From the NCBI GenBank assembly GCA_015061905.1, contig SUVQ01000007.1, positions 1-64,000 of the forward strand: a stretch of 64,000 nucleotides of DNA, given 5' to 3'. A program made the translations under genes and the position numbers. Source of the stretch: Verrucomicrobiota bacterium (GTDB lineage: Bacteria; Verrucomicrobiota; Verrucomicrobiia; Opitutales; UBA953). The notes under the pieces were generated by a model that saw only the letters and a list, made by a program, of their open reading frames with translations, ran no database searches and was not told the DNA's origin. Below, piece by piece: positions 4,135 through 9,737 of the stretch (position 1 is its first letter; every line of letters starts with the position of its first letter).

Positions 4135-4194
4135 CGGCGGCGGGCGGGAAATTTCCTTTTCGGGACTTCTCTTTCGTATTATCTTGGAACGACT

Positions 4195-4719
4195 ATGGTT
4201 TACTATTTAGAAGACGTTCGCAAAGTTTACGCCAATCCGCTTCCGACGCTGATTTATTTTGCTCAGGAAATTCATCAGCAATCTCAGGTGGCGGATGCCG
4301 TGCAAGTCGCCGCGTGGGATCACCCGGAAACGGTCGAACGCGTGGTCGTCGAATCGAACGAAACAACGGAAAAATGCTTGGAGCAACTTATTGCACTTTC
4401 AAACTCCGAAAAGCATCCGGACGTGGTTGAGATTGACGCGGGAACGCCGTCGATCGGCGTTTTTGAATTTGTGCGCATTGTCGCCGTGGCGCGTATTTTG
4501 TTGCCGAAAACGCTGATTCGCTTGGCGGAAAATTGCGCGGCAATGTCGGCGGGAGCGCTTGCGCTTTGCCTGTCCGCCGGAGCCAATTCCGCATTTTTCG
4601 CGGGAAATATGCTTGAGGCTTTGGGCTTGCGCCCGCTCGACGTAACCGAGCATCACAAAAAAGTTCACGGTTGCAAGGGCGACGGCTCCTGCGGTCATTG
4701 CACTTGCGGCAGGCACTAA
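4195..4719 (+). CDS. BioB-like protein lacking the radical-SAM core
   Basis: 174 aa. The N-terminus (about residues 4-37: EDVRKVYANPLPTLIYFAQE, then IHQQ and VQV) aligns well with the start of biotin synthase. The second half (about residues 95-150: FEFVRIVAVARILLP, then RLAENCAAMS and CLSAGANS) aligns with the BioB C-terminus. The intervening 150 or so residues of a normal 320-350 aa BioB are absent. These include the CxxxCxxC cluster for the SAM-binding 4Fe-4S and the Cys ligands of the 2Fe-2S cluster. A tail CKGDGSCGHCTCGRH supplies four new cysteines. It cannot be a working biotin synthase as written. It may be an in-frame deletion remnant or a repurposed metal- or substrate-binding protein. 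A possible -10 (TATTAT) lies at 4178-4183. Confidence 0.7.
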   Translation: MVYYLEDVRKVYANPLPTLIYFAQEIHQQSQVADAVQVAAWDHPETVERVVVESNETTEKCLEQLIALSNSEKHPDVVEIDAGTPSIGVFEFVRIVAVARILLPKTLIRLAENCAAMSAGALALCLSAGANSAFFAGNMLEALGLRPLDVTEHHKKVHGCKGDGSCGHCTCGRH

Positions 4720-8870: not shown

Positions 8871-9101
8871 TGGTGTAATTGGTGAAATTTGCGGATTTTT
8901 TTCAAAACGTGCTTGACGGGCACGTTTTTTTTTTTGCGACAATCCATGCTAAGAATTGGGACAAATCGGCGGGAACGCCGCATGTGTTCCGGTTTTTACC
9001 CTCAAAAATAATTTTAACAATCACAATCAAACTTAGTTATTATGAAAAAATACATCACACTCGCGGCGCTCCTCGCCGCCGGAACAACATTCGCTAACGC
9101 G
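8871..9101 (+). repeat. Cassette 5' block, copy 1
   Basis: About 230 bp are nearly identical (I estimate about 95%) to 55041-55272. The block covers the leader, a hairpin or promoter, the start codon and the signal peptide of the PEP-CTERM gene. Homology stops at the signal-peptide cleavage region. Its first 30 nt (GTGTAATTGGTGAAATTTGC and following) also occur alone at 12632, before the EF-hand gene, and in degenerate form near 15011. Confidence 0.85.
8904..8943 (+). promoter_or_regulatory. Promoter or hairpin with poly-T tract, copy 1
   Basis: TTGACG (8913-8918) and GACAAT (8938-8943) are separated by 19 nt that include a run of 11 T. The same stretch folds as AAAACGTGC / GCACGTTTT around the TTGACGG loop, so it can also be read as a terminator with a long T-run. 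Copy 2 at 55084-55113 has 10 T and an 18-nt spacer. A promoter is plausible because the block is conserved upstream of both PEP-CTERM genes. The two readings cannot be separated from sequence. Confidence 0.5.
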
Positions 9102-9737
9102 GACCCTGAGGTATATTCAACTCCTTGGCCTGGAACCGGAGACGGATATACCCGCGGGGGAATGAATGCACAAGAAATAAATCTCGCGGGATTTAGTCTT
9201 TCAGCTGAGGAATATTATATCGGAGACATTACTTTTGCCAAAAATACATACACCGCATCATTTGCCTCATATCTCGCAATCGTAGATTTATCGTCTAATC
9301 TTCTTCTTGGAATCTCTAACGAAGTTTCATCTTTGACGGGACAATCTTTCGGAAATGCTAGTGGTAAAGCTGCGGCAGCTTATTCTTTTTCAAACCTGAC
9401 GCTTTCTGCCGATTCCAGTTATCTTGCCGTCTTTTTGTCGGGAACCACGAGTCTTGCTGTCGGGAGTGAGTTCGATTTTACATCAGATTTGATTACAACG
9501 GTTACAAGTGATAAAAATGGAATTTATTGCACCGCTCTTGATTCCAACAAAAATTCTTATGGATATGCAAAGTCCATTTCGGACGAAGGGGTGATTAGTA
9601 ATTTCACAGACAGCAGTCTTACATATGGAGCAACCTATAAAGTTTCGGTAACTCCTGTTCCCGAGCCGTCGGCATTCGGAATGCTTGCGGGCTTGGGTGC
9701 GCTTGCGCTCGTGGCATCGCGTCGTCGTCGCAAATAA
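9042..9737 (+). CDS. PEP-CTERM surface protein, cassette 1
   Basis: 231 aa. A Sec signal peptide (MKKYITLAALLAAGTTFANA) is followed by about 180 residues rich in Ser/Thr/Asn and predicted to be beta-rich, with no recognised domain. The tail begins PVPEPSAFGMLAGLGALALV and ends SRRRRK, a PEP-CTERM sorting signal: PEP motif, membrane helix, basic end. Proteins of this class are processed by an exosortase and placed at the surface or exported. The leader and tail are almost identical to those at 55213-55887, while the middle is unrelated. The gene body has no GGGAACG copy and is A+T-richer than its neighbours. The start has no Shine-Dalgarno sequence and sits in a conserved A-rich leader. Confidence 0.88.
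   Translation: MKKYITLAALLAAGTTFANADPEVYSTPWPGTGDGYTRGGMNAQEINLAGFSLSAEEYYIGDITFAKNTYTASFASYLAIVDLSSNLLLGISNEVSSLTGQSFGNASGKAAAAYSFSNLTLSADSSYLAVFLSGTTSLAVGSEFDFTSDLITTVTSDKNGIYCTALDSNKNSYGYAKSISDEGVISNFTDSSLTYGATYKVSVTPVPEPSAFGMLAGLGALALVASRRRRK

Follow-up and report, generated by a model that had tools for sequence, protein, structure and literature searches.

A biotin synthase-like protein without the radical-SAM core is maintained by purifying selection in a genus of gut Opitutales

The 64,000-nucleotide stretch of Verrucomicrobiota DNA analysed here (the window) carries an uninterrupted frame of 174 codons corresponding to a short form of biotin synthase (BioB), which we call mini-BioB (Table 1). 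Strong purifying selection acts across the whole of this gene and is about as strict as that on the neighbouring gene dnaE. The short form is almost certainly retained for a function, and that function is very probably something other than biotin synthesis. We consider it reasonably probable that it is an exapted, non-catalytic descendant of BioB, i.e. a pseudoenzyme, that binds a soft metal or an Fe–S cluster. A preliminary description made from the sequence had already proposed an intact frame kept for another purpose rather than decaying; both proposals held, the second through orthologues of the same shape in four relatives, very low dN/dS, the lack of any detected full bioB in the short-form genomes and a coherent predicted half-barrel fold.

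Table 1 Features of the mini-BioB locus (positions in the window; G000–G007 are the eight genomes of the genus, G000 being that of the window)
Feature	Position	Strand	Basis and remarks
TATTAT hexamer, possible −10 element	4177..4182	+	12 bases 5′ of the start codon; upstream sequence comparison
Short-form BioB (mini-BioB)	4195..4719	+	174 aa, coordinates include the stop; orthologues in G007, G004, G005 and G001; purifying selection
Residues 1–38, kept BioB N-terminal helices	4195..4308	+	Alignment to full BioBs; two helices in the model
Residues 39–55, linker in place of the deleted radical-SAM core	4309..4359	+	Deletion blocks relative to G002 BioB; selection
Residues 56–142, C-terminal half-barrel/BATS region	4360..4620	+	Pfam BATS; AF2 model and 1r30 match; newly fixed C61, H74, D81 and C114; retained R109 and C125
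Residues 150–174, last helix and Cys/His tail	4642..4716	+	Invariant in 5/5 short forms; H153, H154, H158, C160, C166, H168, C169, C171 and H174
Tail core	4672–4707	+	Within the last helix and tail; low model confidence

In order to define what had been lost, the full BioB of the congener G002 (Candidatus Spyradosoma merdigallinarum) was taken as the reference for deletion blocks. Alignment placed the absent parts at its residues 39–95, 99–168 and 178–188, which agrees with the roughly 150 missing middle residues described earlier, with smaller gaps at 221–225, 229–233 and 288–301 and at the end of the C-terminal extension. All blocks are in-frame in the five genomes that carry the short form. 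At the N-terminus the 40 or so residues said to align with BioB are borne out, residues 1–38 being retained; at the other end the C-terminus is indeed kept, but more than the last 60 or so residues is BioB-like, the retained part running roughly from residue 56 to 159. Over the aligned parts the short form is 55–60% identical to the BioBs of its congeners. The segments CPEDCAYC (from residue 49 of the G002 protein), RFCMG (91), VCCTLG (124), YNHNLD (147) and VCSGG (184) are all absent, and with the first of these the radical-SAM CxxxCxxC motif is gone. The lost segments also hold what we take to be the three cysteine ligands of the BioB 2Fe–2S cluster. Its fourth ligand, presumably an arginine, survives as R109, at the position of E. 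coli R260, and is conserved in 10/10 sequences. The earlier statement that the SAM cluster and the 2Fe–2S ligands are missing therefore stands for the motif and the three cysteines but not for the arginine. The asparagine of the VPIN motif, invariant in full BioBs (the E. coli N222 position, which we assume to have a ligand role), is replaced by an invariant aspartate, D81, in the short forms. Lacking the SAM-cluster motif, the short form, we infer, cannot make biotin and is almost surely an inactive remnant of the enzyme.

The window protein matched the Pfam BATS profile PF06968 over residues 83–140 with 28.4 bits, above the gathering cut-off of 22.2, while the most divergent short form, from G001, scored 15.3 and fell below it. 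Against the BioB family model TIGR00433 the window protein reached 34.2 bits, far under the cut-off of 225, and matched only profile positions 232–291 of 307. Among PDB sequences it matched E. coli biotin synthase (1r30) with an E value of 1.2e-9 over residues 85–140, and weakly over residues 5–39. The next gene downstream is dnaE, as it is for the full bioB of G002, and the neighbourhood otherwise consists of unrelated genes, among which no partner or operon hints at a role. Taken together, the 1r30 match, the identity to the congeners' proteins and the shared dnaE neighbour indicate that the short form shares descent with BioB. The TATTAT hexamer listed in Table 1 occurs at about the same position 5′ of the short forms in G007, G004 and G005 and of the full bioB in G002, and may be a −10 element; a scan for the sigma-70 consensus found no promoter upstream of the short-form gene. 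Elsewhere in the neighbourhood, a PEP-CTERM protein (Pfam PF07589) is encoded after dnaE at 9042–9737, and G004 and G005 contain, immediately 5′ of the short-form gene, short frames with secreted-protein-like starts.

Of 57 genomes searched, comprising the window's own and relatives, five contain a full-length short frame: G000, G007 (97% protein identity to the window copy), G004 (87%), G005 (86%) and G001 (51%). The relatives carrying it are Opitutales metagenome-assembled genomes (MAGs) from the hindgut of goat, sheep, water buffalo and water deer. When the search was widened to 372 genomes of the order, 109 gave some match, and the whole short form was recovered in one match only in those same five. 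It is thus found in five of the eight members of the window's genus and nowhere else among the 372 genomes; the remaining three members (G002, G003 and G006, the last an Opitutia MAG) encode a full BioB and no short form. Five other short or partial frames from the order search, in G266, G116, G344, G014 and G233, were inspected as candidate BATS-only forms and rejected, being either truncated at a contig edge or a full BioB with frameshifts. The full BioB of G266 (L096) contains frameshifts that reflect either a recent pseudogene or a sequencing error. No relative was found on viral contigs or plasmids. In other family members that lack a BioB match the profile found no remnant, so that retention is no general habit, and as far as searched the short form appears specific to one genus. 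A search of the open-licence PMC literature found nothing on a core-less BioB, which publications elsewhere may hold.

Selection was then estimated from the aligned copies. Among the four close copies the six pairwise NG86 dN/dS values lie between 0.017 and 0.098, at dS of 0.44–1.29, and the same pairs of dnaE give 0.018–0.069. A codon model with ω = 1 was rejected with 2ΔlnL of 276 for four sequences and 282 for five, and region by region with 2ΔlnL of 70 for the N-terminus, 17 for the linker, 133 for the half-barrel and 67 for the tail. Even the 16 linker codons of residues 40–55 showed selection at 2ΔlnL 16.7. Differences fall mostly in third codon positions (44 of 53 between G000 and G007, 42 of 45 between G004 and G005). 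Pairs with G001 gave dN/dS of 0.149–0.337, values that are little informative since its branch is very long (5.6) and saturated. The regional rejections of ω = 1, the low dN/dS and the third-position excess together show that the short form is constrained over its entire length, tail included.

The five short forms formed a single clade with support of 100/100 in a gene tree built on shared columns, from which one intended outgroup, G044, was left out. A tree of histidyl-tRNA synthetase (HisRS) did not group the five genomes, and their grouping was not rejected (AU p 0.116). A single origin, with the short form maybe an old paralogue that sorted among species, would be the simpler reading and is favoured by the gene tree. 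Fourteen residues are fixed in the five short forms but occur in none of five full BioBs, namely V38, E59, C61, H74, D81, L103, T106, L107, C114, L122, A136, H154, V157 and H158. Five of them are cysteine or histidine (C61, H74, C114, H154 and H158), an excess with a binomial p of 0.0016 on full-BioB composition and 0.007 on short-form composition, figures that ignore the kinship of the five sequences. Without the three columns at the tail end, three of 11 are cysteine or histidine (p 0.033, again ignoring relatedness). Both C61 and C114 stand where the five full BioBs have invariant arginines.

Pathway profiles were run on ten genomes, eight of the genus and two of the family, of which five have a full BioB and five the short form. 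The BioB profile search found no full BioB in the five short-form genomes. BioA was above cut-off in all five full-BioB genomes versus none of the short-form genomes, and BioD scored 71.2–143.7 bits in the former versus a sub-threshold 36.5–41.3 bits in the latter, where the weak matches sit in long frames of 387–403 aa; matches of similar weakness are also seen in the full-BioB genomes. The biotin ligase BirA is encoded in all ten. A search for BioY, and with it for BioY-type biotin uptake, found none in the ten genomes. For bioF every genome gave a match and none reached the cut-off, the genomes with an apparent BioD–BioF fusion included. Such a fusion is seen as one 630-aa frame on contig 98 of G002 (L053), and a similar 679-aa frame in G006 has both BioD and BioF matches. 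The BioB, BioA and BioD pattern together with the kept BirA makes biotin auxotrophy, with continued use of biotin, probable in the short-form species. With genomes 95–98% complete, the absence of bioA and bioD could be due in part to MAG incompleteness.

The C-terminal tail, CKGDGSCGHCTCGRH, had been described as a gain of the short form, and its novelty had been part of the argument for a new purpose. That part does not hold, since the short form inherited the tail from the BioB of the genus and HisRS carries it too. In the genus each of the three full BioBs already has CKGDGSCG(N/H)CTCG, after which the protein runs on for a further stretch. In G004 and G005 the profile search also matched a 479-aa frame at its end; this frame is HisRS (TIGR00442, 327 bits against a cut-off of 286.75). 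The HisRS of all eight genus genomes has the Cys tail with small variations, e.g. HCRGDGSCGHCTCGKHE (L064–L071); outside the genus, that of G009 (L072) carries a Cys tail of another sequence, ending in GCDRQGGCGCSH, and that of G008 (L073) has none. A strict DNA pattern for the tail hit eight of the 372 order genomes, all within this genus. BioBs of sister genera (L010–L026) have short Cys-rich ends of the CGxGGCGCK type, e.g. CGQGGCGCK, so BioB tends to end in a Cys tail across the family, with a sequence that changes. In 445,468 bases of G000 (about one fifth of the genome, window included) the short form was the only protein found with this tail. A 495-aa frame on contig 3 of G000 (L092:13135–14622) ends in SCTCACSEKD and possibly has another Cys tail.

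AlphaFold2 (AF2) models were obtained for the window protein (mean pLDDT 76, pTM 0.78) and for the divergent G001 copy (mean pLDDT 75, pTM 0.73). The best structural match of both was BioB 1r30, with Z 14.4 and rmsd 2.1 over 146 residues for the former and Z 13.0 and rmsd 2.1 over 140 residues for the latter, followed for both by HydE, HydG, ThiH and PylB; structures of type II (4Fe–5S) biotin synthase, 8vcw and 8vdw, were also among the matches of the window protein. The fold is partly informed by full BioBs, since the AF2 alignment had seven rows and two of these were full BioBs, and the model may be drawn towards BioB. In the models the N-terminal helices are predicted to pack on the half-barrel, and the Cys/His tail, modelled with low confidence (pLDDT 45–51), would be flexible. 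The newly fixed Cys/His residues, the retained C125 and the four tail cysteines suggest a soft-metal or Fe–S site. On residue chemistry, binding of a metal or Fe–S cluster is, if by a narrow measure, the likelier case. This suggestion leans more on the newly fixed Cys/His residues than on the tail. Putative ligands, named with less assurance, are C61, C114, C125 and the tail cysteines C160-x5-C166-x2-C169-x-C171, with neighbouring histidines.

Several other explanations of the locus were considered. A bioB made useless in an auxotroph could be decaying by piecemeal deletion, its frame open by luck; the loss of the biotin pathway in these five genomes and the several deletion blocks fit such a pseudogene. 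The dN/dS values and the rejection of ω = 1 at 2ΔlnL 276, in the range of dnaE, speak against it, as do the preservation of frame by every block in five of five genomes and the 14 new residues fixed in all five copies, and we regard it as very improbable. An assembly or binning artefact might be suspected given that the short-form relatives are MAGs, but the same shape recurs in four relatives from four host species at 51–97% protein identity, with many synonymous differences among the copies, which makes an artefact the most improbable of all. Strong purifying selection and the shared shape in relatives thus leave little room for either decay or misassembly. A split enzyme, in which a radical-SAM core encoded elsewhere would be completed in trans by the short form, is suggested by the fact that the two kept ends are those able to complete the barrel. 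The BioB model nevertheless found the short form alone in G000, where four candidates were scored, and turned up no further fragment in the remaining four genomes, and the substrate suppliers BioA and BioD are missing as well; the odds of a split enzyme are accordingly minute, hardly above those of an artefact.

A metal-free regulatory or scaffold role deserves more weight, although we judge it rather unlikely. The half-barrel would then bind biotin, dethiobiotin, a SAM-like ligand or a protein, and act as a sensor or subunit. The conservation of R109 throughout and the change of the VPIN asparagine to an invariant D81 would suit such a role, and retention of BirA means that biotin is still in use. 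Most of the substrate pocket, formed by YNHNLD and the surrounding barrel strands, is lost, however, and such a role would account neither for the fixed Cys/His residues nor for selection on the tail. The metal- or cluster-binding descendant of BioB is the reading we favour. By this account, biotin synthesis would have been lost in a gut Opitutales lineage and the radical-SAM core of bioB removed by several in-frame deletions, while the N-terminal helices, the C-terminal half-barrel and the pre-existing Cys/His tail would have been kept by strong selection for a different task. The product may hold a soft metal ion (Zn or Fe) or an Fe–S cluster and serve as a carrier, a sensor or an assembly partner.

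Type I BioB (TIGR00433; 1r30) would be the direct ancestor, to judge from the shared N-terminal helices, C-terminal half-barrel and arginine ligand position, the tail common to the short form and the congeners' BioB, and the dnaE neighbour seen at the G002 bioB. The short form differs from it in having no radical-SAM core, CxxxCxxC motif or three 2Fe–2S cysteines, in scoring far under the family cut-off, and in that BioA and BioD are gone. The BATS domain (PF06968) of BioB, whose C-terminal arrangement is shared by structure with HydE, HydG, ThiH and PylB, normally follows a radical-SAM barrel; in the short form it stands without that core. Pseudoenzymes keep a scaffold after catalysis has been lost, as the short form does, but usually with the fold intact and catalytic residues altered, whereas here roughly half of the barrel has been lost. 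A further comparison is offered by BsaP, an auxiliary protein of actinobacterial BioB that is encoded mostly downstream of bioB; mycobacterial BioB is described as needing this small protein, whose three conserved cysteines are proposed to hold an Fe–S cluster (PMC11099021). By that description the short form resembles BsaP as a small protein with conserved cysteines, but BsaP serves a BioB and the short-form genomes have no bioB. By analogy, the tail of the genus BioB may once have acted in a comparable way.

A more far-reaching proposal, which we hold to be doubtful, is that the short form represents a new family of metal or Fe–S carriers that arose within one genus by excision of the BioB radical-SAM core. 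It has the tag CxGDGxC..CTCG in common with HisRS, so one metal-delivery or redox system would perhaps serve or sense both proteins. The Cys tail common to these two proteins suggests that gut Opitutales possess a cysteine tag. The case cautions against taking BATS or BioB annotation as evidence for biotin synthesis. The locus seems to offer a clear-cut natural example of a radical-SAM enzyme whose entire catalytic core is gone while constraint remains on a par with that of dnaE, and it allows direct tests of what becomes of enzymes in organisms auxotrophic for a vitamin.
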